Shown here one piece after another: positions 27-46,400 of a DNA stretch of 52,672 nucleotides. Position numbers and translations under genes: made by a program. Under the pieces are notes generated by a model. The model had not been told where the DNA came from, did no database searches, and saw only the letters and a list, made by a program, of their open reading frames with translations. The DNA comes from Roseburia sp. (GTDB lineage Bacteria > Bacillota > Clostridia > Lachnospirales > Lachnospiraceae), in NCBI GenBank assembly GCA_017549185.1, contig JAFYVJ010000071.1:1-52672 (forward strand), written 5' to 3'. Position 1 is the first letter of the stretch. Each line of letters begins with the position of its first letter.

Positions 27-513
27 AAGTGGTTTTTTTATTGTGTGCCAAGCATGGCACTAATCTAGCTAGTGAAAGTCTAGGCACGGGTATTTACCAC
101 CAAGTGTAGTGAACCACAAGTCGGTATCAGTAATGGTATGGATGAGGGAAGTGGTGTAGCAAAGTTCTTGAGCCTACGAACAGAAACTTGATAAGGTGAT
201 TAGGTGGGTAAGATTGCAATACAAATCGAAGCCCTAATGGTAAACGTAAACCGAAGTTGTAAATCAAGAGGTTGTGGAACGAAAGATTAGTGTCTTACCT
301 TGGGAGACCCTACCCACATATCGTAAGATATGGTCGAAAAAGGTTTAGGGAGGGAGTCGGATGAAGTCATAGTAGGGATAATAACTGAAGGACTGAAACG
401 ATTTATAGTATGAATCGTTACTGAGAAAATCGTACATTAGCTAGAAATCAGGTGGATAAAAAGAGCAGGAACGTAACCGAGGGATATTATCTATACCGAG
501 AGGGGCGTCGTGT

Positions 514-1694
514 ATGAATATTACAGTAAACAGAGGAGTAACAAGAATGGAATTAATTGATGTGATTACGTCAAAAGAAAACCTGAACAGAACCTATATG
601 CCCAAACCGGTACGAAGAGTATATATACCCAAAAGTAATGGTAAAAAGAGACCGTTAGGGATACCAACAGTATTGGACAGAACAATTCAGCAAGCCATAG
701 CACAGCCGATAACAGATATTTATGAGGAAGTATTCAGTGAATACAGTTATGGATTTAGACCAAACAGAAACTGTCATGATGCCATAAAACAAGCATTGGA
801 ATATTTGAATGAAGGCTATGAATGGGTGATAGATATTGATATAGAACAATTCTTTGATAAAGTAAATCATGATAAATTAATTCAAATACTTAGGAAACAA
901 GTAAATGACAGTACGACATTAAATCTGATACGCAAATATCTGCGAGCAGGAGTAATGGAGAACGGATTGGAAAAAGCAACAAAAACAGGAGTACCACAGG
1001 GCGGATTATGTCGAGCTCGTCATAAGGCGGAGTAATCAGTCCGGTACTTGCAAATCTGTTTCTACATTATGTATTTGATGATTTTATGGTTAAAGAATTT
1101 CCGAGCATTTCGTGGGCAAGATATGCGGATGATGGAATTGCACATTGTGTATCTCTTAAACAGGCAAAATATCTGAAGCGCAGACTACAGGAACAGTTTG
1201 CAACCTATGGGTTAGAATTAAATTTGGAGAAAACAAGAATAGTGTATTGTAAAGATGATGACCGAAAAGGGAATCATGAGCATACCTCGTTTGATTTTCT
1301 GGGATATACATTCAGACCAAGGCTTGCAAAGAATAAGTATGGAAAGTTCTTTGTCAGCTTTCTGCCAGCAATGGGAGGAAAAGCAAAGAAAGCTATACGA
1401 AAAGAAGTCCGTAGTTGGAAGTTACAGTTCAAAACAGATAAAGACCTGTGGGATATAGCAAATATGTTTAATAATAAGATACAGGGATGGATTAATTACT
1501 ATACGCATTTCTACAAATCAGAGATATATGATGCTTTAAGATATATCAACAGTCGGCTGATATACTGGGTAAGGAGAAAATATAAGAAACGGAACTCAAG
1601 GAAGAGAGCTGAACATTGGTTAGGAGAAATAGCGACAAGAGAAAGAAACCTGTTTGCACATTGGAAGTTTGGAATACTGCCAACGGCTGGATAA
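514..1694 (+). pseudogene. Group II intron reverse transcriptase/maturase, frameshifted
   Basis: This would be the intron-encoded reverse transcriptase and maturase. The first part (514-1035) carries RT blocks 1-4: [33 protein letters not shown], the DIDIEQFFD motif, and GVPQGG. The second part (1086-1694) carries the catalytic YADD box (ARYADDG), the FLGYTFRPR block and a maturase/thumb segment with GWINYYTHFYKS. Between them a 26-bp insertion (1005-1030) shifts the frame just after GVPQGG and leads to a stop at 1033-1035. Removing it restores [12 protein letters not shown]. The N-terminus also looks short: residues after ENLNR jump to TYMPKPVRR, apparently lacking the usual RT-0 region of roughly 45-50 residues. 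Both lesions suggest a decayed gene. The split into two reading frames is seen directly; the domain-0 loss is inferred from general knowledge of the family. Confidence 0.85.
1005..1030. repeat. 26-bp palindromic insertion with 5-bp direct repeat
   Basis: The inserted 21 nt (1005-1025) contain a 20-bp near-perfect palindrome with arms TTATGTCGAG and CTCGTCATAA (9 of 10 pairs) centred on GAGCTC. It is followed by GGCGG (1026-1030), a copy of GGCGG at 1000-1004. The layout is that of a tiny insertion or excision footprint with a 5-bp target duplication. It disrupts the reverse transcriptase exactly at the conserved PQGG motif. Confidence 0.75.
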
Positions 1695-1770
1695 TGGGAG
1701 CTGTATGAGCTGAGAGGTTCACGTACAGTTCTGAGAGGGACTTAGGGGGAAGTTCCCTAGGTCTACTTAC

Positions 1771-2352
1771 TTGCTGATATTTACAAAAAGTGAAATGTCA
1801 GCAAACAGAGTTATGAAATCCATATCAGACTGGTTGGAAAGAAAGCTGTTCCTAAAAGTAAATGCCACAAAAACAAAAGTGGTAAGACCGACAAGAAGCA
1901 AATATCTAGGGTTCACCTTTTTGAAGAATGGTGGAAAATGGAAAGTAAAACCAACAAATGAGAAGAAAAAGGCACTGAAAGCAAAACTGTCAGAATATCT
2001 AAAGAGAAACAAAGCAGTGGCAAGACCATTAGCAGTTACGATAAAGCGAGTAAATGAGATTGTAAGAGGATGGATTAACTACTTTAGGATAGGCATGATG
2101 AAACAGTACATGGAAGAGTTTGGTCAGTGGCTCAGACATAAGATAAGAGTTATCGTAATGAAACAATGGAAAACAAATAAAACGATATACAGAAATCTGA
2201 GTTATTTAAACAGAAAATATAAGAATGGAATTAGTCAGGAAGATATATATAAAGTGGCTAATTCAAGACTTGGGTGGTACCGAAGAAGTGGAATGAACGT
2301 TGTAAATTTCATAATAAGCAAAGAGTTGCTCGAAACGAAAATAAAGGACTAA
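1771..2352 (+). pseudogene. 3' half of a second group II intron reverse transcriptase
   Basis: This frame opens directly after the first intron and reads LLIFTKSEMSANRVM, the sequence that normally follows the YADD catalytic box. FLKVNATKT, YLGFTF and the maturase helices (VRGWINYFRIGMMKQYMEEF, then WLRHKIRV) follow, ending in the C-terminal block near SRLGWYRRSG. It belongs to a different subgroup from the reverse transcriptase at 514-1694. RT blocks 0-5, including YADD, are absent from the window, so it is a remnant. The first intron appears to have inserted right after the YADD codons of this host intron gene, and the 5' half was later lost or exchanged. Confidence 0.8.
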
Positions 2353-2409
2353 GCAGGTTTGCTAAATCCTTTATCGTACTACCTAAGTAATATTGGAATA
2401 TAAATTGTA

Positions 2410-2481
2410 GAGCCGTATACGAGACCCGTATGTACGGTTCAATGAGAGGGAAATACATTAGCTGTTATTTCTCTACTCTAT
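2410..2481 (+). ncRNA. Domain V/VI of the outer group II intron
   Basis: A 31-nt domain V-like helix at 2410-2440 starts GAGCCGTATACG and ends GTACGGTTC. A domain VI hairpin follows (GAGGGAAATA with TATTTCTCTAC) and carries a bulged-A candidate in CTACTCTAT. It marks the 3' end of the intron that hosts the fragment at 1771-2352. The end coordinate is approximate. Confidence 0.65.
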
Positions 2482-2513
2482 TGGAAAATGCTAAATAAGG
2501 AGATAAATTAGTT

Positions 2514-3062
2514 ATGAAAAAATGTTTAAATTGTTACTGGTGTACGCAAGAGGATAAATTATATTGTGAGAAGTGCGGTACTAAATTAACGGAAGTGAAA
2601 GAAACAGTTAATACAAGTACAACTGGGAATACAAACCAGAGTACGAGTACGAATCCGGATAATGGCTTTAATGAGGAACTGAAAAAAAAGAATCTTGTGT
2701 GGAAAGTGTGTAGTGTGATTTTAATTGTTATTATGTTTTGCATTAGAATTAATGCTACAGAAGAAGTAGATTATTGGGAAGATATATGTAATCAACGTAA
2801 TGAAAAAATTAGTAGTTTGCAATATCAGTTAGATAATGCAAATGAGGAATTAAATGTTTTAAAGGAAACAGAATTATATTTAAAAGAGCAGACCAATTTT
2901 ATGGATAACCATATAGGAATCATCGATGCAAATAGTGATTCAAATCTATATCATAAATATTTTTGCGAAGAGTTGGATTGGGATAGTGACTGGAGTATAC
3001 TTGTTTTTAATATAAAGCGAGCAGAAAAAGAAGGATATTCGCCATGTAGTAAATGTTACTAA
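2514..3062 (+). CDS. Zinc-ribbon membrane protein with coiled coil
   Basis: A 182-aa protein of unknown function. The N-terminus is a double-CxxC zinc ribbon (CLNCYWC, then CEKCG, about residues 4-22). A Thr/Asn/Ser-rich linker follows, then one transmembrane helix (about 63-80, VWKVCSVILIVIMFCI) and a predicted coiled coil (about 95-125). The C-terminal module has the pattern YHKYFC, then AEKEGYSPCSKC. That resembles the small His/Cys domain (H-x-x-C, GY-x-PC-x-x-C) found at the ends of many Firmicute proteins. The start is supported by AAGGAGA about 12 nt upstream. It lies between the intron block and the first dynamin gene. Two further zinc-ribbon membrane-type proteins sit at the other end of the dynamin island, so it may belong to that system. 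That link is inference from position. Confidence 0.75.
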   Translation: MKKCLNCYWCTQEDKLYCEKCGTKLTEVKETVNTSTTGNTNQSTSTNPDNGFNEELKKKNLVWKVCSVILIVIMFCIRINATEEVDYWEDICNQRNEKISSLQYQLDNANEELNVLKETELYLKEQTNFMDNHIGIIDANSDSNLYHKYFCEELDWDSDWSILVFNIKRAEKEGYSPCSKCY

Positions 3063-3136
3063 ATGGCTATATGAAAGGATTTGTAATGATATCCGAATCA
3101 TAAGCGGGAATGTAATAAATAGTTAAGACTGAGAAG

Positions 3137-4903
3137 ATGATGCAGGAGGATTTGCTTGTGGAGGATGGAAAAATAACGCAAAATGAGTATGTTTGGCATA
3201 AAAAGTTGTATGAATTAGAAACTATTTCTTCGGAATATAGCCAGGGAAAAGAATATGCAAAAAAAATTGAAGAAGCAATGCACATGATTGAAACACGGAG
3301 ATATCGGGTTGCGGTAATTGGAGAGTTTAAAAGGGGAAAATCCAGCATGATAAATGCACTTCTTGGGTCAGAGGTTTTGCCGACAGATATTTTACCGATG
3401 ACAGCAGTTGTTAATCGAATTGTTTATGGAAATCAAAAGGAGATATTGATTCAATATAAAGATGGACGTATGGAGAGGGCAGGGGTAGAAGATTTGATTT
3501 CCTATGCGACAAAGTATGACGAAGAAAAGGCATATCGTGCAGAAAAAGTAAAGGAAATAGTTGTCAGCTATCCATCCGTATTTTGTAGGAATCATGTTGA
3601 AATTTATGATACCCCGGGGTTGAATGATGATGAACCGATGACAGAAACAACGCTAGGGATTTTAAAAGATGTGAATGCGGCAATCGTTGTCATATCCGCG
3701 GTAATGCCGCTTAGTATGACAGAACAGAATTTAATCATTCAATTACTTGAATGCAAGGAAATACATAATATTATATTTGTTATTACATTTATTGATGCAG
3801 TTTCATCTAGAAGAAGTGAGCAGGATAAAGTGATTAACTTTATGAAAAACAGAATTATGGAATCTGTATTGCCGCGGGCGTTATCTTTGCATAAGGAAGA
3901 TAAAAAATTTCAGGAAAAGGCGCGAAGAATTTTAGAATGTCCGGTTACATTTGCAGTATCCTCCTTACTGGCGATGAAAGGATTTTTACAGGACGATGAA
4001 GAATTATTGGAAAAAAGTCGTTTTCCGGAATTTAAACATTCGTTATTAGACGTTTTGACAGCTGGACAGAGTCTTGAAATGGAAGAACGGGTTTCAGATA
4101 TGGTGGAGCAAATTTCAAAGGCAATTCAAAACTGGTATGTACTGGAAGATAAGGCATTAAAGGAAGAAGAATTGTTCAATGAAACTGCTTATCAAAAATG
4201 TATGGCTTATTTTAATGAAAAAGATAAGGAATTAGAAAAAATATTTATAGAAACGGATGCTGATTTAAAAAGGAAAGGGTTGGATTTTTCGGAATTAGAA
4301 AAAAAAGTATCAATTGCAGCAGAATTTCGTAAGATTTTTATTAGGGCACTAAGTAGGTTGAGAGTTGGAGCGACTGCAAAGGAGATAGAGCAGACAATTC
4401 ATAATGCAGCACAGGATGGACTAATATGGATCAGAAGGGAAATGAATATATGGAACCAGGATACGGTAAATTGCTTAATGCAGAGCAGTCAAAAATTTAT
4501 GAAAATACGTCAGGATGCATTATTCAGAGTGATAGAAGATGCATGGGGACGGACTATTTCAGAAAATTATAATGAGGAACATATGACATTTCCTGAATTT
4601 AACTGGAACGATGAGCTTTATCCGGTGACATTAAATCTACTACAGGAAGATGTGATGCCGTTTATCAATAAAAGAATTGAGGAATCGTTGGATGCTTATG
4701 AGATGAAATGTGGTGTTTTTATTGCAAATTGGAGAAAAATGCTGATTCAGAGAAATAAGAATGGTGATGTATATGAAGCAATACAGAAAGATTATGAAGA
4801 AAAGAAAAATGCATTGCAGATGCAAAGAGAGATAAAACGACGTCAGTACAGTAAACATGAAGAACTGTTAACTCAGCTTGTCTCAAAAGAGAATAGAAAG
4901 TAG
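3137..4903 (+). CDS. Dynamin-like GTPase 1 (soluble)
   Basis: A 588-aa bacterial dynamin-family GTPase. The P-loop GEFKRGKSS lies near residue 62. The switch-I region contains TDILPMTAVVNRI, and G3 is DTPGLND near 158. The G4 position reads TFID, not the usual N/TKxD, so guanine recognition may be weak or altered. The rest is a long helical stalk-like region rich in charged heptads with no obvious transmembrane segment, unlike the second dynamin. Family knowledge: bacterial dynamins often act as pairs of unequal GTPases that bind and remodel membranes. The start is uncertain because the ribosome-binding site before 3137 is weak; TTG or GTG codons a few residues on are alternatives. A 150-bp gap separates it from the second dynamin gene, so it may be transcribed with it or separately. 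Confidence 0.88.
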   Translation: MMQEDLLVEDGKITQNEYVWHKKLYELETISSEYSQGKEYAKKIEEAMHMIETRRYRVAVIGEFKRGKSSMINALLGSEVLPTDILPMTAVVNRIVYGNQKEILIQYKDGRMERAGVEDLISYATKYDEEKAYRAEKVKEIVVSYPSVFCRNHVEIYDTPGLNDDEPMTETTLGILKDVNAAIVVISAVMPLSMTEQNLIIQLLECKEIHNIIFVITFIDAVSSRRSEQDKVINFMKNRIMESVLPRALSLHKEDKKFQEKARRILECPVTFAVSSLLAMKGFLQDDEELLEKSRFPEFKHSLLDVLTAGQSLEMEERVSDMVEQISKAIQNWYVLEDKALKEEELFNETAYQKCMAYFNEKDKELEKIFIETDADLKRKGLDFSELEKKVSIAAEFRKIFIRALSRLRVGATAKEIEQTIHNAAQDGLIWIRREMNIWNQDTVNCLMQSSQKFMKIRQDALFRVIEDAWGRTISENYNEEHMTFPEFNWNDELYPVTLNLLQEDVMPFINKRIEESLDAYEMKCGVFIANWRKMLIQRNKNGDVYEAIQKDYEEKKNALQMQREIKRRQYSKHEELLTQLVSKENRK

Positions 4904-5053
4904 GAGAATAGAAAATACTTTGCCAAGTTCTGGTGTTGTAGATTAGATTCAGTGGAATGTAAAGCCTTATGCAGAACTAGCTTTAATGATAGCAGTATAA
5001 ATTATATGGCTTTTATTAGAAAATGTGAATTATAAACGAAGGAGGAACCAGTT

Positions 5054-7093
5054 ATGGAAACAGCTGCAAATAACGGATATGTTAATTATCAGGCAATGCT
5101 TTCCCAAATTAATTATGGAGCAATTGAACTGGAAAAGATATGCGTCGAGTTAGAGATGGAGGAACGAGCACAGGCTATTAGAGAGGTAAAAACAAAACTT
5201 CAGGATCATACGTTTTCCGTAGGAATTATGGGAGAATTTAAACGAGGTAAGAGTACAGTGATCAATGCCCTTTTGGGAAAAGAAGTTTTACCGGCAGATA
5301 TTTTACCATGTTCTGCTACATTAAATCAAATTAAGTGGGATGTAAAACCTCGTGCAGAAGTACGATTTAAAGGTGGCAGTGTCAAAGAAGTTGAAATTGA
5401 TGAATTAGCAAATTATGTAACTAAATTAACAACTGAGTCAGAGCAAAATGCAGCGAATGTAGAGGACGCTGTTGTATATTATCCTTGTCAGTTTTGTCAG
5501 AATGGTGTTCGCATTATTGATACGCCAGGCTTAAATGATGATGAACGAATGAATCAGGTGGCAGAAAGTGTTCTTCCGACACTGGATGCGATTATCATGG
5601 TAATTGTTCCGGATGCACCATTTAGTATCAGTGAGGCAGATTTTGTTCGTAATAAAGTTATGGTTAGTGATTTGGGACGTATTATTTTTGTAATTAATAA
5701 AATAGATATGGTTCGTGAACGTGATCGTCAGAGAGTGGTAGATTCTATTAAAGCCAAAATTCAAACTAGTGTTTTGGAAAAAGTAGAAACGCTTTATGGG
5801 GCGGATTCCAAGGAATATGCAGAATCCAAGGCAAAATTAGGCGGTATTCGTATATACCCGGTTTCTGCTATGAAAGCCTTAGATGGCAAACTTGATGGAG
5901 ATGAAGAATTGCTTAAAGAAAGTCAGATGCCGAAATTTGAAAAGGCATTGACACAGCTTCTGACCGAAGAAAGAGGACTTTTAGAATTGATTGGTCCGGT
6001 AAATGTGGTATTAGGTGCTGCAAAAGAAATAAGAGAAGTCATACAAATGAGAAAAAATGCTATGGATTTGGATAAAGCAGAATTTGAAAAAGTACAAAAA
6101 AAATCCATGGAAGAAATTCAGGTAATACGAAGAAGAAAAAAAGAGGAAGTAAAAAACTTAGAAGCAAAATCCCAAAATATTTATAGTGAATTAGTTCCAA
6201 TGGTGGACTGCATCTATGAACAGATGAAGGAAAGGTTATTAAAGTATGTGGATACCTGTACCATGAGTGATGATGATGTAAAATCAGAAGAAAGAAAGCA
6301 GGCGGCAGCAGAAAGAATCGGCAAAAAGTTAGATGAGCAGATGAAAGTCTGTCTGTCGGAGAATACAGAAGTCCTTCAGATGAGAATTATGGACAGGTTA
6401 GGCGATGAAATGTGCCGTATTGAAGAATTGAATCAGGATATTATGCAGAGTATGGGTAAAATACATGGCATGATTCCGAAAAAGACCGGAATGGATTCCG
6501 CAGATATTGCAGGTATTGTGGTGGATACGGTTACCAGTTACAGTGGAGTACTTGCAATTGGAGGTATTATTTCCGGTTGGAAAGTGAATGGAATAAAAGG
6601 TGCATTAGTTGGAGGAGGAGCAGGTTTTGCGGCAGGTTATTTGGCTATGACAGCGGCATTAAGTCTTGGAGTAGTAGGATTGCCGTTAGCATTAGTTGGT
6701 GGTGTTGTAAGTACGTTTGGTGGCAAAGCAATTACAAAGCTGGTATTTGGTAAACAGATTGCAGAACGAGAGAAAGAAAAGCTACGTTCCGAATTAAAGA
6801 GGAGTGTAGTTGCATCTGTTGATATGGTGAAACGACAGAGAATGTTAGAAAACTGGCTGAAAGAAACGACAGATAATGTATTTTATAGTTTATCAAAACA
6901 GTTGAATCAGGAAGTAGAGACGATGCTTTCGAGTACAGAAACGACATTAAGAAATATTCAGGTAGACTTAGAACGCAGTAAGGCAAATCAGGAAAGTGTT
7001 TTGAAACAGTTAGAAACGAAAGAAAACTTATTGGCAGAGGTATGTAAAGCACTTCTTCCGGTGAAAGAAAAATTGGATGAAGCCAGAGGATAG
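5054..7093 (+). CDS. Dynamin-like GTPase 2 with membrane hairpin
   Basis: A 679-aa dynamin-family GTPase with P-loop GEFKRGKST (near residue 60), ADILPCSATLNQI in switch I, DTPGLNDD (near 156) and a canonical G4 motif NKID (near 217). A long coiled-coil stalk follows. Residues about 486-570 form a Gly/Ala-rich hydrophobic stretch (for example LAIGGIISGW and GVVGLPLALVGGVV) that can form a membrane hairpin, as in bacterial dynamin-like proteins with a membrane-inserting paddle. The C-terminal 100 residues are again coiled coil. The ribosome-binding site GAAGGAGG is strong. It begins a tight run of genes: the M48 peptidase starts 12 bp after its stop. It is the only one of the three GTPases here with a clear membrane insert, so it is probably the membrane anchor of the set. 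Confidence 0.92.
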   Translation: METAANNGYVNYQAMLSQINYGAIELEKICVELEMEERAQAIREVKTKLQDHTFSVGIMGEFKRGKSTVINALLGKEVLPADILPCSATLNQIKWDVKPRAEVRFKGGSVKEVEIDELANYVTKLTTESEQNAANVEDAVVYYPCQFCQNGVRIIDTPGLNDDERMNQVAESVLPTLDAIIMVIVPDAPFSISEADFVRNKVMVSDLGRIIFVINKIDMVRERDRQRVVDSIKAKIQTSVLEKVETLYGADSKEYAESKAKLGGIRIYPVSAMKALDGKLDGDEELLKESQMPKFEKALTQLLTEERGLLELIGPVNVVLGAAKEIREVIQMRKNAMDLDKAEFEKVQKKSMEEIQVIRRRKKEEVKNLEAKSQNIYSELVPMVDCIYEQMKERLLKYVDTCTMSDDDVKSEERKQAAAERIGKKLDEQMKVCLSENTEVLQMRIMDRLGDEMCRIEELNQDIMQSMGKIHGMIPKKTGMDSADIAGIVVDTVTSYSGVLAIGGIISGWKVNGIKGALVGGGAGFAAGYLAMTAALSLGVVGLPLALVGGVVSTFGGKAITKLVFGKQIAEREKEKLRSELKRSVVASVDMVKRQRMLENWLKETTDNVFYSLSKQLNQEVETMLSSTETTLRNIQVDLERSKANQESVLKQLETKENLLAEVCKALLPVKEKLDEARG

Positions 7094-7105
7094 GAGACAA
7101 AGTAT

Positions 7106-8044
7106 ATGTTACAGGATATATCCCCATTAAATAGAATAGATGTAAGATTTTCGACTTATATTGCAAATCGAAAGGCAGATGAAAACGGACACATGGTAAA
7201 TGGTGTTCCGGATTATTCTTTTGACCTTGATAATGAATTGCGTCAGAAACTAAATAACATTCCGGGATTTGTATCGCTCAGTAAAAAAATTTGTGCAACA
7301 ATTGCAGCCAGACAGATACAACTTGTCAATCAGTCAGGACTTGCAGTAGGTCCGAATCAGTTTCCGGAAATCTATGAGATGGCAGTGGATTGTGCTAGAA
7401 AGTTAGGAATCGGTGTGCCAAATGTATTTGTGGAAAATAATCCGGTTATGAATGCATATACCATTGCCAGTGATGATGTAAGTCCAATTATTGTATTGTA
7501 CAGTGGTATTGTGGAACGTCTGACACCTGGAGAGTTGAAATGCGTTATTGCACACGAATGTGGTCACATACATAATCAGCATGCAATATATAAGGTAGTC
7601 ATTGATGAGATTTTAAATAGCGGCACAGGAACGCTTGGAACGATTCTTTCTGTTGCAAATATTGCTTTAATGCAGTTTTGGACAAGAGCAGGAGAAATTA
7701 CGGCAGACAGAGCAGCATTGATTTGTGCGGATAATGTGGAGGATGCAGAAAATGTTAATAAAAAACTGCTTTATGGAGCTATGATAAATACAGATTATAA
7801 GGTAAATGTTGAGGCTTTGAGAGAACAGTTAGAAGTAACATTGAACAATCCTACCAAAATTTACGAAGTGCTGTCCGACCACCCGAACAGTATTCGTCGT
7901 GTGCTGGCAGAAAAAGAATTTGAGGAGTGTGAAGTCTTTTATAAGTGGCGACCTGAGTTAAAACGTCCGGGAATGACAATGCGCACAAAAGAGGCAACAG
8001 AAATTCGTTGTAAGAAGTTAGTCAATATCTTGGATAATAAATAG
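7106..8044 (+). CDS. M48-family zinc metallopeptidase in dynamin operon
   Basis: A 312-aa M48-like peptidase. The zinc site HECGH lies at residues 150-154 inside IAHECGHIHNQH. The third ligand is supplied by GEITADRAAL (Glu near 197), the arrangement of HtpX/Ste24-type peptidases. Upstream, MNAYTIA and IIVLYSGIVERLTPGEL match the conserved M48 core. Unlike HtpX it lacks the N-terminal pair of membrane helices. Only one mildly hydrophobic stretch (about 175-190) is seen, so it is probably cytoplasmic or peripheral. It sits 12 bp after dynamin 2 and 9 bp before dynamin 3, which implies co-translation and a shared job. It might process one of the partner proteins, such as a zinc-ribbon membrane protein, or act as an effector; both are inference. 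Confidence 0.88.
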   Translation: MLQDISPLNRIDVRFSTYIANRKADENGHMVNGVPDYSFDLDNELRQKLNNIPGFVSLSKKICATIAARQIQLVNQSGLAVGPNQFPEIYEMAVDCARKLGIGVPNVFVENNPVMNAYTIASDDVSPIIVLYSGIVERLTPGELKCVIAHECGHIHNQHAIYKVVIDEILNSGTGTLGTILSVANIALMQFWTRAGEITADRAALICADNVEDAENVNKKLLYGAMINTDYKVNVEALREQLEVTLNNPTKIYEVLSDHPNSIRRVLAEKEFEECEVFYKWRPELKRPGMTMRTKEATEIRCKKLVNILDNK

Positions 8045-8053
8045 GAGAAGGTT

Positions 8054-9832
8054 ATGGAAGAAATGAAAAAACGTATTATTTACTCCCCGGAAGAAATGGT
8101 ACAGTCAGTAGAAAATGTACTGGATAAATTAAATGTACTTCGTTATGATGGACAATACCGAATTCTCTTAGGTGATGCTGTGTTAGAAAGATTGCATACA
8201 TGGGATACCAATATTAGAAAGAGGAAAGACGATCCTTTTACTGTTGTTGTAATTGGAGATTTTAAAAGGGGAAAATCAACATTTATCAATGCTTTGTTGG
8301 GAGAACAAGTAGTTCCTACAGATATAACGACAGAAACGGTGACTTTTAATCGTATCAGCTACGGTGCCGGAGGAAATGAGGCAGTGTTATCCGGTAGTCG
8401 AAGAATCCGTCTATCAGATAATGAGTTAAAAAGAGAAGAATTAGAAAAAATTATTGCAGAGACCGGTGAGCCGATTTCACGTATTGAATTGAAACGTCCA
8501 TGTGAGATATTAAAGACTGTAACTATTATTGATACGCCTGGAACAGGAGATGCGATGAAAGATTTTGGACCGCAGGTAGAAGAATATTTGTTGCAGGCAG
8601 ATGCAGTAATTTATCTTTATTCCGTAAAATATCCGCTTTCACAGACAGAACAGTTGTTTTTGAAGACGGCAGTACTTCCACAGAAGTATACAAAACTGTT
8701 TTTGATAGGAAATTATGCAGATACGGCAGGAAAAGAGGAAACGTACCAGCGTATAAGAACAGGTGTAGCTGAAAGAATACATGGACTGTTACCTGGAACA
8801 GAGATTATTACGGTAAGTGCCTTAGATGAATTGAGCCGCCAGTTAGGAGAAGCGAGACCGTGCAAGGCATTAGCACCTATTTTAGAGGAGCAGTTTTCTG
8901 TTTTTCGTACCATGTTAGAGAAGCTGATTGCTGACAAAAAAGATACAGTTATTATTGATCGTATGCAAAGACTGACCACTGCCATGTTGCAGGAATTAAA
9001 TGAAGAACTGGAGATTTTGGAAAAAGGTCTTGCCATGAGCAGTGATGAAGCAAAGAAGTGTTTGGAAGAATTACAGCAACAGAAGCAGGCAAGCGTTGAG
9101 ACTCAGAAAAAAACGATGGAGAATGTTGATAAAATGATTGAACACATGCGTGGAGAGGCAAATGTGTGGATGCAGGAGTTTTTGCAGAGAATGGAGAGTG
9201 AAACACGTTGTTTAAACAGTTTTTCAACTGATGATTTATTGAAATATTATAGTTTTTACTGTATTGATTTATTACAGGATGCAATGAACGCTTGTTTGGA
9301 ATACCACAGAGAAGAGATTTTTGAAAACCTGCAGGATATTTCAGAAGGATTAGCAAAAGAACTGGCAGGAAGTTTGAAAGAACAGAAGGGATACAATTTC
9401 CGTTTTAGAGTGGATAATAAAGTCTGGACCAAAGGTGACAATGTAAGCTTTGCAGTTTCTGTTTTGGGTAGCATGGGAACGCTTGGAAAACTGGCATCAT
9501 TAGTGGCAGATGGTTTCGCGGGAGCTATGCGACAAAATGAAATGGAAACGAAAAAGCCGGAAATTTTAAATCAGATTGCAACGCAGATGCCGGGTTTGGA
9601 AGCTTCGGTTGCAGCAACAATTACAGATTTATATACAAAACTCGGAGAAAATGCGAAAAAGCATATTTTGGATTTTTATCAGGAAGAACTGGAAAAAGCG
9701 GAACATTTGGTAAAACAGTCTGTAGCTGTGGCAAATAGTCAGGAAGAACAGAAAGAGAAAATTCGTGTTGCCGCAGAAAGCATGAGATTGATTTTAAAAG
9801 AAGCGGAAGCAATGATTGCAACGGAAATTTAA
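8054..9832 (+). CDS. Dynamin-like GTPase 3
   Basis: A 592-aa dynamin-family GTPase. The P-loop GDFKRGKST is near residue 68, switch I has TDITTETVTFNRI, G3 is DTPGTGD near 160, and the G4 position reads GNYAD near 220 (fits NxxD). The following 350 residues are largely coiled coil. A short, weakly hydrophobic stretch around 470-490 (VSFAVSVLGSMGTLGKLASLVADG) sits where dynamin 2 has its membrane hairpin but is much weaker. It begins 9 bp after the M48 gene, with AGGAG upstream. It is more divergent than the other two in switch I and G3, which suggests an asymmetric three-part assembly and not simple duplicates. Confidence 0.9.
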   Translation: MEEMKKRIIYSPEEMVQSVENVLDKLNVLRYDGQYRILLGDAVLERLHTWDTNIRKRKDDPFTVVVIGDFKRGKSTFINALLGEQVVPTDITTETVTFNRISYGAGGNEAVLSGSRRIRLSDNELKREELEKIIAETGEPISRIELKRPCEILKTVTIIDTPGTGDAMKDFGPQVEEYLLQADAVIYLYSVKYPLSQTEQLFLKTAVLPQKYTKLFLIGNYADTAGKEETYQRIRTGVAERIHGLLPGTEIITVSALDELSRQLGEARPCKALAPILEEQFSVFRTMLEKLIADKKDTVIIDRMQRLTTAMLQELNEELEILEKGLAMSSDEAKKCLEELQQQKQASVETQKKTMENVDKMIEHMRGEANVWMQEFLQRMESETRCLNSFSTDDLLKYYSFYCIDLLQDAMNACLEYHREEIFENLQDISEGLAKELAGSLKEQKGYNFRFRVDNKVWTKGDNVSFAVSVLGSMGTLGKLASLVADGFAGAMRQNEMETKKPEILNQIATQMPGLEASVAATITDLYTKLGENAKKHILDFYQEELEKAEHLVKQSVAVANSQEEQKEKIRVAAESMRLILKEAEAMIATEI

Positions 9833-9861
9833 TACTAAAAGGATAACAGGAGAAGTAAAAG

Positions 9862-10254
9862 ATGAGTGATTATGAAGTAGGATATACACTGGGTGTAGTG
9901 ATAGGATCGATTGTTATGGGGTTATTGATTGGATTAATTCCTTATTTTATGGCAAAAAAGAGAGGTCGTAAAAATTTTGGAATGATAAGCATAGTCATAT
10001 GTATATTAGCCAATTTCTTAGGAGGAGTTATCATTTCGATACCGGTGTGTTTAATTGTAATTGCTGTTCTATTAGGAACAGAGGGGAATAATAACAAAAC
10101 AACACAGACAAATTATGGGAATGATATTAATAATGGAAGTAATACAAACAGTTTTTCGCAGACAACACAGACGCAGGTTTATTGTATATACTGTGGTGCT
10201 GCTGTGAATAAGAATTCCATGTATTGTACGAGTTGTGGACATAAATTGCCGTAA
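9862..10254 (+). CDS. Two-helix membrane protein with C-terminal zinc ribbon
   Basis: A 130-aa protein. Two hydrophobic helices (about residues 8-28 and 40-70) are separated by a short basic loop (AKKRGRKNF). A polar Asn/Thr/Gln-rich linker leads to a C-terminal zinc ribbon with CIYCG and CTSCG. It follows dynamin 3 by 29 bp with AGGAG upstream and is probably the last intact gene of the dynamin operon. The architecture is the mirror image of the zinc-ribbon protein at 2514-3062, where the ribbon is N-terminal. The function is unknown; a membrane adaptor for the GTPases is a reasonable guess. Confidence 0.8.
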   Translation: MSDYEVGYTLGVVIGSIVMGLLIGLIPYFMAKKRGRKNFGMISIVICILANFLGGVIISIPVCLIVIAVLLGTEGNNNKTTQTNYGNDINNGSNTNSFSQTTQTQVYCIYCGAAVNKNSMYCTSCGHKLP

Positions 10255-10313
10255 TAAATTAGATGTGAAATAAGCTAATGTCATTATAGGTGGGGCTTTG
10301 AAAGGAGAGTTTT

Positions 10314-10628
10314 ATGATCGTATTTAAACTTAGTTGGTTGCCATATATGCTTGTGATTGCAGGTGTGAGTATATTAATTGAGGATGGAGATCCTTTGGGA
10401 TTGATACCGTTAATAATTGGTGGCGTTTGGTTATATTTTAAGTATTTTGGCGGAAATTCTAAAAATGAACCTTAAAAAAATGCACAAAAATCTACCAATA
10501 TAGTGCAAAAATCAGAAGCTGATATGCAAATTAGTTTAGGTTCTAAGGTGAAATTTTGCAGTTATTGTGGTGTAAAATTAAAAGAGGGACAGTTTTATTG
10601 TGCTGAGTGTGGAAAAAAAGTACAGTAA
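10314..10628 (+). pseudogene. Small membrane/zinc-ribbon gene with in-frame stop
   Basis: A 104-codon frame interrupted once by TAA at 10473-10475. The 53 codons before it encode a mostly hydrophobic protein (MIVFKLSWLPYMLVIAG, then LIPLIIGGVWLYFKYF). The codons after it encode a zinc ribbon (FCSYCG, then YCAECGKK) like the neighbour at 9862-10254. The ribosome-binding site GAAAGGAGAG is strong. It reads as a paralogue of the previous gene that has acquired a nonsense mutation, although a short membrane peptide may still be made. A sequencing error is possible but is not favoured by the sequence itself. Confidence 0.6.
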
Positions 10629-10705: not shown

Positions 10706-10743
10706 ATGAAAGGTGAGGATACTTAGGTGTCTTCACCTTTCAT
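10706..10743 (+). terminator. Hairpin after the dynamin island
   Basis: ATGAAAGGTGA (10706-10716) pairs with TCACCTTTCAT (10733-10743); the inner bases GATAC and GTGTC extend the stem. There is no clean T-run, so it could be a weak terminator or a processed 3' end for the dynamin operon. Confidence 0.45.
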
Positions 10744-11118
10744 GTATATTATGTTGGCATATGGGTGTATATTGGTGAGTATCCTAATTTATCGTTTAGG
10801 GTATTAACAGTTATATAAATAAAGTTATGAACAAAATACCTATTTTGATAGCAATTTAAAGGTAAGTATGTTACATTGATGAATAGAAAAAGCAAGGGGA
10901 ATAATTGTAAGTCAGAAATTTAGTTCAAGATAGTATTATAGAAGTGACTGCTGAACCAATTATCCGTTATTTTAAAAAGAAGTATACTGAGGTATATGAT
11001 TTAGCATAGTAATCATAAATACGAGTTGAAGTTTTGTTTCATCGAATATGATAGAATAGGGAATGAATTAGGCTATAGGGTGTTACTATAGATGGAGAAA
11101 ATTTAGAGGAAAGACGAG
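10744..11118. other. Intergenic stretch without a clear gene
   Basis: This AT-rich stretch has no gene with a start codon and ribosome-binding site. One frame at about 10918-11010 is open for 28 codons (it includes EVTAEPIIRYFKKKYTEVYDLA) but has a stop directly upstream and no start. It may be a fragment of a lost gene. TTGAAG near 11025 and a TATGATAGAAT box near 11047 could be the promoter of the HAD gene, with low confidence. Confidence 0.4.
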
Positions 11119-40315: not shown

Positions 40316-40344
40316 TTGCTTGCTATGGAGGTTTGTGGTACAAT
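40316..40344 (+). promoter_or_regulatory. Promoter of the giant glycosidase gene
   Basis: -35 TTGCTT (40316-40321), a 17-bp spacer and -10 TACAAT (40339-40344), giving a leader of about 55 nt before ATG 40405. Confidence 0.6.
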
Positions 40345-40404
40345 CATAGTGATATTATGTGCGTAGTGTACAGAATAATTAAATTTAAAGAAAGGAACGA
40401 AGGA

Positions 40405-43400
40405 ATGAAAAACAAATTTTTCAAAAGAGCAGTAGCTGCCCTTATGGCAGCGGTTCTCGTTCTGTCAGACTTCGGAGGTATAGCTCCGGTTTCGGCAGAG
40501 GAGATTCAGGTTCGTACAGAGACGAACGCTCAGATGAGTTCTGATCCGGAATACGTATATGTAAATGCATATAGCGATCCAGCAATCCGTGAACAGAATT
40601 TTGATGAAAATTGGAAATTCTATCTGGGTGAAGCAAGTGGTGCAGAAAATGCTACCTACGATGACTCTAGATGGGAAAGTGTGAATCTGCCACACGACTA
40701 CAGCATTGAGCAGGAATATACTGCTGCAGGCGAAGCAGAAAGTGCATATCTGTTAGGTGGTACGGGATGGTACAGAAAGTACTTCACTTTGACAGAAGCA
40801 TTGAAAGACAAAGAAATCAGAATTGATTTCGGTGGTGTTTATATGAATTCCACTGTATGGATTAACGGTACTAAATTAGGTACACATCCATATGGTTACA
40901 CACCATTTTCATATGATATCACAGATTACGTAGAATTTGGAAAAGAAAACGTAATCACTGTAAAGGTAGACCATCAGACACCATCCAGCAGATGGTATTC
41001 CGGTAGTGGTATTTACAGAAGTGTAAATCTGACTATCATGGATAAGGTTCATGTAGACCTTTACGGAACTAAAATAGAGACACCAAATCTGGAGACGGAA
41101 AAAGGTGGAACAGTAAATATGTCTGTCGCTACAACAGTAGCCAATGCAGGAACAACTGCAGCAAACGTAGTATTGACACATACTATTTACGAAAAAGGTA
41201 CAACAAACAGCATCGGTACAGTAACAACAGAAGCTCAGACTGTTGAAGCAAATGCCAGTGCCAAAATTGATGCAACACTTCAGGCTTTAAATCCAAAGCT
41301 TTGGGGTATTGGTGAAGAAAATGCACACCTTTACACTGTGAAAACAGAAGTTAAAGTGGGTGAATACGTAGTTGATACCTATGAAACAGAATACGGATTC
41401 CGTTATATTGATTTTGATACACAGACAGGTTTCTCTTTGAATGGTCAGAATATGAAATTAAAAGGTGTATGTATGCACCATGACCAGGGTGCTCTTGGAG
41501 CAGAAGCATATTATCGTGCGATCGAGCGTCAGGTAGAAATCCTTCAGGAAATGGGATGTAACTCGATTCGAGTAACTCACAACCCAGCAGCAGATGAATT
41601 AATCGAAATCTGTAACGCAAAAGGTATGCTGGTAGTCGAAGAAGCATTCGACGGCTGGATGTACAACAAAAACGGTAACTCTAAAGATTACTCTAATTAT
41701 TTTGAAACTGCAATCGACAGTGGAAATAATTTAATCGGTGCTGATGCAGAACCAATGCCGGTAGATTCTACAGATGATATATTAGGCGCTGTAGAAGGTC
41801 TTTCATGGGCACAGTATGATTTAACAAGCATGATCAGACGTGGACAGAATGCACCATCAATCATTATGTGGTCTTTAGGTAATGAAGTTTGGGAAGGTGC
41901 ATGGGGTTCAGAAGACTTCCCGGAAGTTGCAAGAACATTAATCAGTTGGGCAACAGCATTAGACAGCAGCAGACCAAGTACAATCGGTGATAACAAATTA
42001 AAAGAATCTAATTCGAATTCTTTTGCGATGTCTGAAGCGCTTACAGCAGCAGGCGGTATTACAGGATCAAACTATTGTAGTGGTTCTAATTACGACAATG
42101 TTTATAACAGATATAAAAATGTAGAGAACTTTGCATTATATGGTTCTGAAACTGCGTCTCATACAAACAGCCGTGGTGTTTACGATACCAGAGCAAATAA
42201 CAGCTTGAATGAAGATAATGTATTAACAGCTTATGATGATTCAGCAGTAGGCTGGGGTGCAACTGCCAGCGGTGCATGGTACGATATTATCACAAGAGAC
42301 TATGTGGCTGGTGAATATGTATGGACAGGCTTTGACTACCTTGGTGAGCCGACTCCGGCAAACGGAACTGATTCCGGCTTTAAGCAGGAGAAAGCAACTG
42401 CAAAAGCTCCAAAGAACTCTTTCTTTGGTATTATCGATACAGCAGGTCTTCCAAAAGATAACTACTATTTCTACCAGAGTCAGTGGAACGATGAAGTGAC
42501 AACACTTCATGTACTTCCAGCATGGAATGAAGATGCGGTAGTATCAGGAGATGTGCCAATCGTAGTATATTCTGATGCAGCAGCAGTAGAACTTTTCTTT
42601 ACTGATGCAGAAGGTAACAGAGAATCTCTTGGCAAGAAAGAATTTACTGTTAAAACAAGTAAAAATGACCCGAGCGATACTACAGGCTCAGGTATTTACA
42701 CCTATCAGATTTATGAAGGTGAAGGAAAGAACAATACTACACATAAAAACTTATATCTTACATGGTATAAAGCATTCGAAGAAGGAACAATTGAAGCAGT
42801 TGCTTATGATAGAGAAGGCAACGTAATCAGTGATACAGAAGGTCGTTCTATGGTAACTACAACAGGTGCGGCAGCTAAATTAGTAGCAACTGTTGACCGT
42901 AACGAGATTAAAGCAGATGGAAAAGACCTTGCTTATATCAAAGTAGATGTGACAGATGCAGAAGGTAATATTGTACCAAATGCAGAAAATAACGTAAAAT
43001 TCGTAGTAGAAGGCAATGGTGTTTTAGTTGGTATCGATAATGGTAAACAGCCAGACCATCAGTCTTTCCAGGACGATAACAGAGATGCTTTCAGTGGCTC
43101 TTTAGTTGCAATTGTACAGTCTGAAAAAACAATGGAAGATGGATCTTTCACAGTGAAAATCACTTCAGAAGGATTAACACAGACAACCGTTACAGTAGCG
43201 ACAAAAGCAGTAGCAAATGAAAGTGCAGAAGCACAGATTCGCAGCTTCTATATGTCTAAAAACTACTATGTAAAGAAGGGAAGCACATTAAAACTTCCTA
43301 CCACAATGGAAGCATACTATACAGATGGTTCAACAAAGAATCTTTCCGTTGAATGGGATACAGTAGGAAATACTACACAGAATGGTACATTCATTCAGAC

Positions 43401-46400
43401 AGGTGTGGTTTCTGATGATACAAAATCTTATGGTGTAAGCGTAGTTGTAAACGTCATCGACGAAGTTGGTGGATTATTGAATTACTCTACTACAACAGCC
43501 GTAGGAAAAACACCGGTTCTTCCTGATACAAGACAGGCTGTTTTGGTTGATGGAACAATCTTAAACGCATCTTTCCCAGTAGAATGGGAGACTATATCAG
43601 AAGCCAGCTATGCACAGGCGGGTACATTTGTAGTAAACGGAAGTGCAAATGTTCTTGGTAAACCAATTGCAGTTACAGCATCTGTTCGAGTACAGGATGA
43701 GCAGATTGAAATTTCAGGAAGCATTGACAGATATCTTGACTTAGTACAGGATATTCCAACAGAAAAACAGTCAGATACATTAACAGCAATTTGGGATGGC
43801 AATACAGTAATTGATGCAAATACAAACGGTGGTTCGAATGAATCCTTGTGGACTAATTACACAAATTCACAGCCAACGGATACAGAAGCTGGAGATAACA
43901 CTGCAGAGATTACATTTAACTATGCAACAGAACAGAGAATTGGTGAAATCGTTATTCACTTTGCAAAAGACAGTTATGCAATGGAATATCCGGATGCAGG
44001 TACTACAGAGATTTATGTATCTCCGGACGGAGCAGATGGAAGCTGGGTAAAAGTTGCAGCGAAAGAGTCTATGGGCGAAGAAGTTGATAACGTAAAACCA
44101 TATACATATTCTTTTGCACCTGTTACAGCAGTATACGTAAAATTCTGTCTGACAAACAGCACAGCTGTTAAGACAGCAGCTACTTGTACAGGTATTACAG
44201 AAATCGAAATGAAGAAAGCAGTCGGAAGTTATACAACTTACACAACTGCAGAACTTGCTTCTTTAACTGTAAATGATAAAAAAGTAGGAGCATCCTCACT
44301 TGCAAATGGTGCTTACTATACATTAGATAAGAGTGCAGAAGTAGTAGCAGCCGGCAAAGATAATGCGGCAGTTACAGTTCTTCCTATCTATAATGAAACA
44401 ATTACAATGATTATTGAATCAGAAGATCACTTTACAAGAGAAAACTTTGTGATTTATCTGAATAAGGAGACACCTGTTGGTGCCGAAGACAGTAGCAAAG
44501 ATATTCCAGTATCTGTATTGTCAGCAACCGCAGGCGATCAACATAATGAAAGCGAAGGCGCTTCTAAAGTTCTTGATGGAGACACAGGAACAATTTGGCA
44601 TACAAATTGGTATGGCACAAGCAATGAAAATCACTATATTGATTTTGTATTGAGTGAAGATTATATTGTTAGCGGTTTACGTTACTTACCACGTAGTTCA
44701 GGTGGTACAAACGGAATCATTACTACATACGAAATTTTAGTAAGTAATGACGGAACAAATTGGGAATCAGTAGCAGAAGGTAACTGGGCAGAAGACAGAG
44801 CTTGGAAAGTAGCTAACTTTGACGGATATCAGACAAAATATGTGCGTCTGAGAGCTCACGAAGCCGTATCCAATAATGATGGTTATGTATTTGCTTCCGC
44901 ATCAGAGATTCGTTTGGTTGGTAGAAAACCAGAGCCGGAAGCACCAATGAGTGCAATTTCAGTAAAAACTGCACCAAAAACTTTATATTCCGTAGGAAGT
45001 ACATTTGACCCTACAGGACTTGTATTGAATCTGATCTACAAAGATGGACAGGTTCGCGAACTTGCTTATAGCGACGAAGCAGAAATTACATTCGATGTAA
45101 CAGGCGAGTTGACAGTAGAAAATACAGCAGTAGTAATTACATATGGTGAATTCACTGTAACATTACCGATTGCTGTAATGGATGTTGAGATACCAGAACC
45201 GACACCGGAAGTTGGACCGGATGAAGATGGACGAGATATTCCACGTGAAGGTCTCGAAGCAATTTCAGGAAGTGCATATCCGGGAGGAGGCAATGAAGGT
45301 CCTGCATCACTTGTATTAGATAATAATGCAAATACACACTGGCATACAAATTACAACACTAACGAGGGTTCAAATGTTGCTAACAGATGGATTGGAATCA
45401 GATTACCGGAAGTAACAACAATTGGCGGTATTCGTTTCTTACCTAGAACAAATGGTGGTTCTAATGGTACACCAACAACGTACCGTGTAGAATACCGTGC
45501 AACAGCAGATGGTGAATGGATAGCGGTTGCGACAGGAAGCTGGGATATAAGTGATGCTAGCTGGAAACGAGTAGAATTTGATGCAGTAGAGGCGAAGGAA
45601 GTTCGCGTGGTTGGTGTGAACACTTATGCAGATTCAGGAAATGATGCACATATGAGTGCTGCTGAATTACGTGTAATCAAACCACTCAATGTTTCAGATC
45701 CAGCAGAAAAGACATTAGCAGCAATTCTTATTACAGAAGCACCAGATACATTATATACAGTAGGTGATACATTTAATCCTACAGGACTTGTATTAACTCG
45801 TGTTTATAGCGATGGTACAAGTGATGTACTTGAGTATTCAGCAGAAGCAGGCATTACATTCAGTGTAACAGACGCATTTGCAGAAGCAGGTAATAAGACT
45901 GTAACAGTTACATATTTGGAAAAAACAACAACCTTAAATGTAGTAGTTCAGCCGGTTCCTACATTAACAGGTATTGAAGTTTCAAAAGAACCAAAAACAG
46001 TTTATACAGAAGGCGATACATTTAATCCTACAGGACTTAAAGTGAAGCTTTTGTATGATAACGAAGCAAAAGTAGAAGTTGCTTATGCAGGAAATGAGTC
46101 AGCATTTGCATTTGCTCCGAATGAAGCATTAGCTACAGAGGATACTTCTGTAACAATTACATATACAGTAGATGGAAAATCTTATACAACAGAGCTTCCA
46201 ATCGAAGTAAATGAACCACCAGTATTAGAACGTATTGAAGTTAAGACAGCACCAAACAAATTGGTATACAAAGCTGGAGAACAGTTAGAAGTTGCAGGAC
46301 TTGTTTTAACATTATACTATTCTGATACATCAACAACAGAAGTGGCATATAACAATGACACAGCAGCGAAATTTGGCTTTACACCTGCAGCAGGCAGTGT

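Follow-up and report, generated by a model that had tools for sequence, protein, structure and literature searches.

A conserved gene cassette of dynamin-like GTPases around an M48-fold peptidase in Roseburia sp. and other bacteria: a candidate protease-linked membrane-remodelling system

Introduction

Several bacterial dynamins are known as pairs. The Cj-DLP1/2 pair forms a 2:2 tetramer by heterotypic pairing, Streptomyces has DynAB, and DynA of Bacillus is a fused form (according to sections of PMC6104087). In these pairs, as in LeoABC and in Nostoc BDLP1 with its tandem partner, dynamin-like GTPases are encoded by adjacent genes of an operon. Cyanobacterial dynamins have been classified in a review according to their neighbours (KGK, HSR1, chaperone or tandem), and the words 'peptidase' and 'protease' are absent from its main text (PMC5827413). 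In the available portions of three dynamin-pair papers (PMC4159319, PMC6104087 and PMC5827413), peptidases and proteases are either unmentioned or named solely as laboratory or control proteins. A functional coupling between an M48 metallopeptidase and a membrane-remodelling GTPase of the dynamin family is found in mitochondria, where OMA1 cleaves OPA1 upon loss of membrane potential (according to sections of PMC8027119).

Here we describe a gene cassette from a stretch of DNA of 52,672 nucleotides (hereafter the window), which is contig JAFYVJ010000071.1 of the Roseburia sp. assembly GCA_017549185.1. Like the bacterial pairs, the cassette has dynamin-like GTPases side by side; it differs from them in having an M48-fold protein between two fixed dynamins (DYN2 and DYN3), with a third dynamin (DYN1) usual in Bacillota. 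A preliminary description of the window had proposed three tightly spaced dynamin genes with an M48 gene, surrounded by zinc-ribbon genes (ZR1 and ZRM), and the open reading frames, Pfam matches and intergenic gaps agree with this. All parts belong to known families; new are the assembly and a branch of the cassette in which the M48-fold protein has become a pseudopeptidase. No published description of bacterial dynamins with an M48 partner was found in the open-access literature (PMC text). We see in the cassette a good candidate for a membrane-remodelling system, linked to a protease, that is so far undescribed.

Results

Conservation of the cassette across bacteria

The main set of loci comprised the best 80 of at least 288 relatives that an M48 alignment identified in a genome collection. 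It contained 57 non-myxobacterial loci, namely 47 from Bacillota (including Clostridia and one Selenomonadaceae), 5 from Cyanobacteria and 5 labelled Pseudomonadota, while the other 23 carried Myxococcota or deltaproteobacteria labels. The scan pattern included HECGH, so pseudopeptidases were missed in that scan. The search was for M48 only, and DYN2 was found directly 5' of M48 in 54 of the 57 non-myxobacterial loci, DYN3 directly 3' in 54, and both in 51. DYN2 was missing at L081, L086 and L092 and DYN3 at L048, L088 and L089; in four of these six cases fewer than 400 bases of contig were left on that side, and at L092, where 2 kb were left, M48 itself was partial. DYN2, M48 and DYN3 stand together under four phyla labels, the Myxococcota having M48 with one dynamin. 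Taxon labels of metagenome-assembled genomes may be wrong, and that of L087 (labelled Klebsiella pneumoniae, 71% G+C) probably is. Four of the loci (L040, L047, L072 and L076) represent the four genomes behind the profiles, and exact 60-mers are common to L046/L047 and L043, L052/L053, L076/L093 and L157/L212.

The cassette is rare, and its parts occur together. A close M48 was present among 98 relatives in the window genome alone (next best match 33% identical), and none of 59 congeners had an M48 match. When 397 genomes of the family were scanned, four other genera carried M48 at 40–54% identity, all four in the arrangement DYN1-DYN2-M48-DYN3 with the same order and strand (M48 of L026 was located by similarity search, not gene calling). 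M48 (E<=1e-70) and DYN3 (E<=1e-50) marked the identical 5 of 397 genomes in the family, and in the class both (each E<=1e-60) marked the identical 3 of 341; three further, weaker M48s of the class were without a cassette dynamin. The probability of such agreement, if random, is about 1e-11 for the family and 1.5e-7 for the class, with E-value limits that were chosen after the scores had been seen; weaker M48 matches amounted to 15 of 397 at 1e-6 and 6 of 341 at 1e-30. In phylum samples M48 was found in 33 of 140 Myxococcota genomes (the centre genome included; at least four, L173, L174, L176 and L201, repeat loci of the first set), with a dynamin adjoining in 31 of the 33 (the exceptions being L169 and L198, the latter near a contig end), and in 1 of 146 Cyanobacteria genomes, which was the centre genome itself.

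The preliminary description had called the cassette a candidate new system, a view to be abandoned if the genes did not co-occur beyond close relatives; these counts clearly show that they do. Distance matrices of M48, DYN2 and DYN3 correlate with r from 0.72 to 0.85, and none of 999 permutations gave a value as high, a result which is compatible with co-function or shared descent and does not separate them. In the M48 tree families are mixed within Bacillota, the window grouping with Selenomonadaceae-, Ruminococcus- and Lachnospiraceae-labelled loci, which suggests that the cassette was transferred as a block, if the labels hold.

Protein families and predicted membrane association

All three GTPases of the window matched Dynamin_N in Pfam (88, 93.9 and 80.6 bits; cut-off 27), and the G motifs that define the GTPase domain of the dynamin superfamily are present in DYN1, DYN2 and DYN3. 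Fold and G motifs are as in BDLP1, IniA and Cj-DLP. The best Protein Data Bank match of DYN1 by sequence was BDLP1 (2j68, E 2.8e-25), covering the region of the G domain only, whereas DYN2 was similar to 2j68 across its whole length (E 2.7e-38); the predicted structure of DYN3 (mean pLDDT 77.3) had 2j69 as best Foldseek match (E 8.4e-19). A helical stalk of the BDLP/mitofusin type is thus indicated for DYN3 by its model and for DYN2 over its full length, and the sequence match of DYN1 is confined to the G domain region. Nostoc BDLP1 was considered as an orthologue of the cassette dynamins and rejected: two cyanobacterial cassette dynamins, two proteins from two loci, matched 2j68 with E 1.4e-32 and 1.7e-21 at low identity, comparable to DYN2 of the window. 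Models of described dynamins fitted poorly, with at best 35.4 bits for LeoA/HP0731 (NF041922, cut-off 325) and 59.8 bits for Bacillus DynA (NF052648, cut-off 1600). In PADLOC the window dynamin domains matched LeoA, LeoBC and LmuB, which lack curated cut-offs there, the best being LeoBC with 97.2 bits for DYN2.

One dynamin had been described as bearing a membrane hairpin and the other two as apparently soluble; among the window proteins the hydrophobic stalk pair was indeed seen in DYN2 only. DYN1 has a single hydrophobic segment, which lies within the G domain, DYN3 a weak one (466–484) at a laxer limit only, and M48 none. At least one hydrophobic segment was present in 53 of 53 rows of DYN2 relatives. 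DYN3 relatives lacked one in 38 of 45 rows from Bacillota and in all 5 from Cyanobacteria, and M48 lacked one in 57 of 80 rows.

The M48-fold protein scored above the Peptidase_M48 cut-off in Pfam, its model was predicted with a pLDDT of 90.7, and it contains HExxH as well as the downstream glutamate zinc ligand of the M48 family. It falls outside HtpX as defined by NCBIfam (best 43.2 bits; cut-offs 245–422). E197 and D201, like the non-ligand residues N157, R194, R202, P260 and R265, do not vary in any of the 80 rows, which represent the window and 79 loci. The invariance of the HECGH residues is partly by design because the scan pattern included them; E197 and D201 stood outside the pattern, which argues that catalysis is under selection in most sampled lineages. 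The window genome also holds a second, distant M48 gene (L023, G000:C29, 7176–8783; about 25% identity) among genes that look like small membrane proteins. Of the zinc-ribbon proteins, ZRM matched Zn_Ribbon_1 with 26.5 bits, just over the cut-off of 25, and the ribbon of ZR1 stayed below the cut-off (NOB1 ribbon, 16.9 versus 24.9 bits).

A pseudopeptidase clade and its missing partners

At one cassette locus, L202, HECGH is replaced by CECGR, and a second such M48 was met in a genome of the class in a search with two query proteins only. A scan of the family of that genome, f83, found M48 in 8 of 66 genomes, in all eight between DYN2 and DYN3. Seven of these eight had lost one or both ligand histidines (SECGR, CECGK, RECGC or CECGH), and in the same seven E197 was changed to D or C. 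These seven and L202 group in a single clade (support 100/100) on a long stem inside Bacillota; two of the eight inactive loci, L157 and L212, are congeners. The close pseudopeptidase pair L204/L205 had dN 0.079 and dS 1.58, and the catalytic pair L066/L070 0.079 and 1.43, dS being near saturation. As dN is low relative to dS in the pseudopeptidase pair just as in the catalytic one, M48 appears to be maintained by selection in this clade although catalysis is lost. A view of the cassette as working through its peptidase activity has to be revised, since a whole clade retains M48 with the active site lost.

We then compared the partners of both forms in Bacillota loci with sufficient room, taken as a minimum of 3.5 kb before DYN2 and 1 kb after DYN3. 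Short flanks excluded 12 of the 49 distinct catalytic loci and 3 of the 8 inactive ones (L156 equals L051 and was counted once). A third dynamin was present in 34 of 37 catalytic and in none of 5 pseudopeptidase loci (Fisher 7e-5). Zinc-ribbon frames were counted by their cysteine pattern if they lay within 4.5 kb and on the same strand; 33 of the 37 catalytic loci had one, against none of the 5 pseudopeptidase loci (Fisher 1.5e-4). The dead form being one clade, both tests overstate independence. Among the short-flank loci, 6 of 12 catalytic and 0 of 3 inactive ones had a third dynamin (the flags at L068 and L079 are partial DYN2 and were not counted). The zinc-ribbon pattern occurred in 14 of 60 control 9-kb stretches (Fisher versus 33/37, 1e-10). 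These controls were strand windows taken from 20 other loci, of which several lie near M48 relatives. Pfam found Zn_Ribbon_1 in 44 of 118 chosen neighbours. In the one family with both forms, a two-component pair, DYN1 and ribbons are present at the catalytic locus L218, whereas the dead loci with room consist of DYN2-M48-DYN3 alone. The loss of DYN1 and ribbons alongside a dead M48 is the best hint as to a possible substrate.

Layout of the window locus and its insertion site

The window cassette comprises six plus-strand genes within 7.7 kb (Table 1), with intergenic gaps of 74 (ZR1/DYN1), 150 (DYN1/DYN2), 12 (DYN2/M48), 9 (M48/DYN3) and 29 bases (DYN3/ZRM). Only one plus-strand terminator-like site was found between 2300 and 11200, and the lack of an earlier one lends weak support to a single transcript, weak because such sites are no commoner than in shuffled sequence (both strands, 2 found versus 3.2 expected).

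Table 1. Features of the cassette locus, in window coordinates
Feature	Position	Strand	Description
ZR1	2514-3062	+	182 aa; zinc-ribbon-like cysteines N-terminal; 1 transmembrane segment (residues 61-79); cysteines in tail
DYN1	3137-4903	+	588 aa; soluble dynamin-like GTPase; P-loop GEFKRGKS, residues 62-69
DYN2	5054-7093	+	679 aa; dynamin-like GTPase with membrane anchor, BDLP-like; hydrophobic hairpin ~485-556
M48-fold peptidase	7106-8044	+	312 aa; without transmembrane segment; HECGH 150-154, E197, D201
DYN3	8054-9832	+	592 aa; soluble dynamin-like GTPase; low-confidence tip 437-493; conserved WTxGD 458-462
ZRM	9862-10254	+	130 aa; 2 transmembrane segments; zinc ribbon C-terminal
Third zinc-ribbon frame	10314-10628	+	1 in-frame stop
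Terminator-like hairpin	10706-10743	+	17-pair stem; possible transcript end
M32 carboxypeptidase gene remnant	10941-11006	+	last 22 codons; right edge of inserted segment

In eight of nine congeners with upstream sequence, a gene related to M32 carboxypeptidases stands intact directly before a HAD gene (Pfam on one); in the ninth, L145, neither gene was found. The HAD gene follows the cluster in the window, where the M32 remnant is 59–76% identical to six relatives. DHH and ileS were kept in all 10 congeners fetched, with no cassette gene in the stretch seen. Because the congeners have an intact M32 gene and the window only its end, the cassette and the group II intron sequence upstream of it were most likely inserted in or over this gene. 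The left edge of the inserted segment is off the contig. No M32 gene was found elsewhere in the window genome, which proves little at 70% completeness.

The mobile intron block that had been reported beside the cluster consists of group II intron sequence in which the reverse transcriptase is interrupted. Its pieces lie at 124–2481 (D1–D4 at 124–293, domain V matches at 1696–1771 and 2408–2481); a stop at about 1035 divides the reverse transcriptase, and another frame, maturase-like by look only, spans 1771–2352. The pieces may represent one intron inside another. At the other end of the window, 40333–52170 is a frame of 3945 residues with glycoside hydrolase family 2, beta-N-acetylglucosaminidase (NAGidase), F5/8 type C and Big domains, that is, a giant glycosidase.

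An integrase or resolvase was seen beside the cassette in three of the loci looked at, without a systematic integrase search: a resolvase directly upstream of DYN1 in L057 (4240–4857), a tyrosine integrase just downstream of DYN3 in L049 (12084–13112), and another in L202. The last (MT836781.1, 8.8 kb, human faecal, an unverified 'Bacteriophage sp.') encodes DYN2, the pseudo-M48, DYN3, the tyrosine integrase and a PemK/MazF-like gene within 175–8678, and is perhaps bacterial DNA in a virome. No M48 or DYN3 relative was confirmed in viral_contigs, and plasmids gave no DYN3 at E<=1e-30. A Tsukamurella plasmid carries one distant M48, which had no dynamin annotated beside it, and the neighbouring hypothetical protein of 706 aa had no Pfam match. 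On these searches we reject the cassette as a typical phage gene set. The patchy spread, the insertion site and the integrases and resolvase fit mobility, not defence in particular.

Distant relatives and neighbouring genes

Weaker M48 relatives (about 24–33% identity) were left out of the cassette counts. In 12 of 15 wide-flank loci of this kind (L021-L024, L029-L036 and L153-L155; L018-L020 are outside this set) no dynamin was found, and the other three have a distant M48 beside other dynamin-like GTPases: two in L034 and three in L035, by similarity or profiles, and two GTPases in L154, one of them above the Dynamin_N cut-off. The link between M48 and dynamins may thus be wider than the cassette. 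A fusion of M48 and dynamin was rejected, as the 959-codon frame concerned (G1000) had no dynamin match. Related M48 proteins adjoin TIR-domain proteins in L029 (9210–14206, TIR by Pfam) and L030 (5758–10151, by a look at the sequence only). Beside the myxobacterial M48-dynamin pair, a gene family is common to L095, L096, L098, L101, L108, L112, L113 and L115; by its motif, the member in L101 looks like a small GTPase of MglA type, Pfam giving no match.

Histidine kinase and response regulator genes stand beside L043, L046 and L218 (Pfam), L066 having a kinase only; sequence clusters alone indicate two-component genes at L040, L047, L070 and L072. Such neighbours are a possible stress input.

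The neighbours scanned for defence genes numbered 118 proteins (117 from 289 listed and one outside), nearly all on the same strand near the core. PADLOC matches among them, judged from 25 of 51 families (3–5 members each), had the generic look of kinases and radical-SAM proteins, with no control set scanned; PD-T4-6 and mad6 are kinases and pVip is a radical-SAM protein. Of the 118, Pfam assigned 5 to kinases and 3 to radical-SAM proteins, and PspA was not among the 25 commonest of the 178 families matched. A single neighbour, at L074, was a kinase-NACHT protein, and L065 had SLATT and SLOG matches below the cut-off. A setting in defence islands, raised in the preliminary description, thus finds no support in the neighbours scanned.

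Discussion

The gene order, the joint occurrence and the parallel loss of active site and partners lead us to propose that the cassette encodes a heteromeric dynamin complex with an M48-fold subunit, and that under membrane stress the catalytic forms of M48 process DYN1 or a partner with a zinc ribbon. We put the probability of this reading at roughly 0.45. The complex, the cleavage with its substrate and trigger, and the benefit to the cell are what we infer. DYN2 would anchor the complex at the cytoplasmic face of the plasma membrane and pair with DYN3, like the heterotypic pairs of other bacterial dynamins, and M48 would bind this pair, being needed there even without catalysis. In the full version, membrane or envelope stress would switch on the peptidase activity of M48, which would process DYN1 or a zinc-ribbon membrane partner and so alter the remodelling or sealing activity. 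The logic would be that of mitochondrial OMA1 acting on OPA1. The OMA1-OPA1 couple and the heterotypic pairs serve here as analogies, and the cassette differs from the former in that M48 shares its gene cluster with up to three dynamins. From HtpX, BepA and Ste24 the cassette M48 is set apart by the lack of a transmembrane segment, scores far below the NCBIfam HtpX cut-offs, fixed dynamin partners and a pseudopeptidase branch.

A number of observations weigh against the proposal. The cassette M48 is cytosolic as judged by its sequence, unlike OMA1, and in relatives a plain Kyte-Doolittle window finds a hydrophobic segment in 23 of 80 M48 rows, in 7 of 45 Bacillota DYN3 rows and in 21 of 21 myxobacterial partner dynamins. 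The persistence of the pseudopeptidase clade shows that proteolysis is dispensable in some lineages. Myxobacterial loci have a catalytic M48 followed by one dynamin only (22 of 23, the remaining locus being at a contig end), and L081 is a true exception, without DYN2 despite 4.5 kb of sequence and with a broken-looking DYN3. At L059, L062 and L081 M48 is catalytic, yet neither a third dynamin nor a ribbon is in range (L059 has a partial DYN1 some 9 kb downstream of its M48). The catalytic L038 has no ribbon, and at the pseudopeptidase locus L214 a zinc-ribbon gene lies 0.7 kb past DYN3 on the other strand. In other phyla a zinc ribbon was found in only 1 of 6 loci with room, the other five having a catalytic M48 without one; the zinc-ribbon flanks noted earlier thus hold for Bacillota, by comparison with the controls. 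Finally, the link between catalysis, DYN1 and ribbons is drawn from one clade and may reflect a single historical event.

Alternatively, the cassette could serve against phages or in abortive infection, the dynamins sensing membrane disturbance at phage entry or lysis and then sealing the membrane or triggering killing or arrest by M48. Because DynA is reported to confer phage resistance on Bacillus subtilis (PMC8844932), such a role is conceivable, and it agrees with a rare and patchy cassette (5/397 genomes in the family, 3/341 in the class, 0/59 congeners for M48 and 8/66 in f83), with insertion at a broken M32 gene, with the integrases at L202 and L049 and the resolvase at L057, and with the neighbours of L074 and L065. 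We nevertheless hold it to be unlikely, given no sign of enrichment of known defence genes among the neighbours, for which no control set was scanned, the lack of curated cut-offs for the dynamins' own LeoA, LeoBC and LmuB matches, the persistence of the inactive clade, and the frequency of M48 in sampled Myxococcota (33/140), which fits a stable function. The LeoABC/LmuB likeness itself is one of dynamin domains, and the best score against the LeoA/HP0731 model is far below its cut-off.

That pseudopeptidases stay between DYN2 and DYN3, the one close pair having a low dN/dS, and that five non-ligand residues are invariant would also suit an M48 that acts in all lineages as scaffold or conformational clamp for the dynamins, its peptidase activity only maturing or turning over the complex itself. 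The equal invariance of E197 and D201 speaks for selection on catalysis in most sampled lineages, and we consider a scaffold everywhere quite unlikely. Still less credence can be given to an ordinary envelope-maintenance operon, in which dynamins and an HtpX-like quality-control peptidase would be co-regulated by envelope stress without acting on each other. The weak HtpX matches of M48 and the two-component genes beside several cassettes (L043, L046 and L218, with a kinase only at L066) would agree with it, but M48 scores far too low for HtpX and has no transmembrane segment, and the strict DYN2-M48-DYN3 order across distant phyla exceeds what shared regulation needs.

If the heteromeric complex with a processing M48 is extended to its widest form, the cassette would be an ancient dedicated bacterial system in which an M48-fold subunit controls dynamins, the catalytic form processing the third dynamin or a ribbon partner and the derived form acting as a structural regulator after partner loss, as a counterpart of OMA1-OPA1. 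This extension is rather less likely than not.

The function and control of bacterial dynamins are largely open, and the cassette, present in loci of four phyla, offers a defined set for testing control by a peptidase. The natural pseudopeptidase clade, without DYN1 and same-strand ribbons, points to substrate candidates. If it is true that a dynamin partner is proteolysed, stress-controlled processing of dynamins would not be peculiar to mitochondria.

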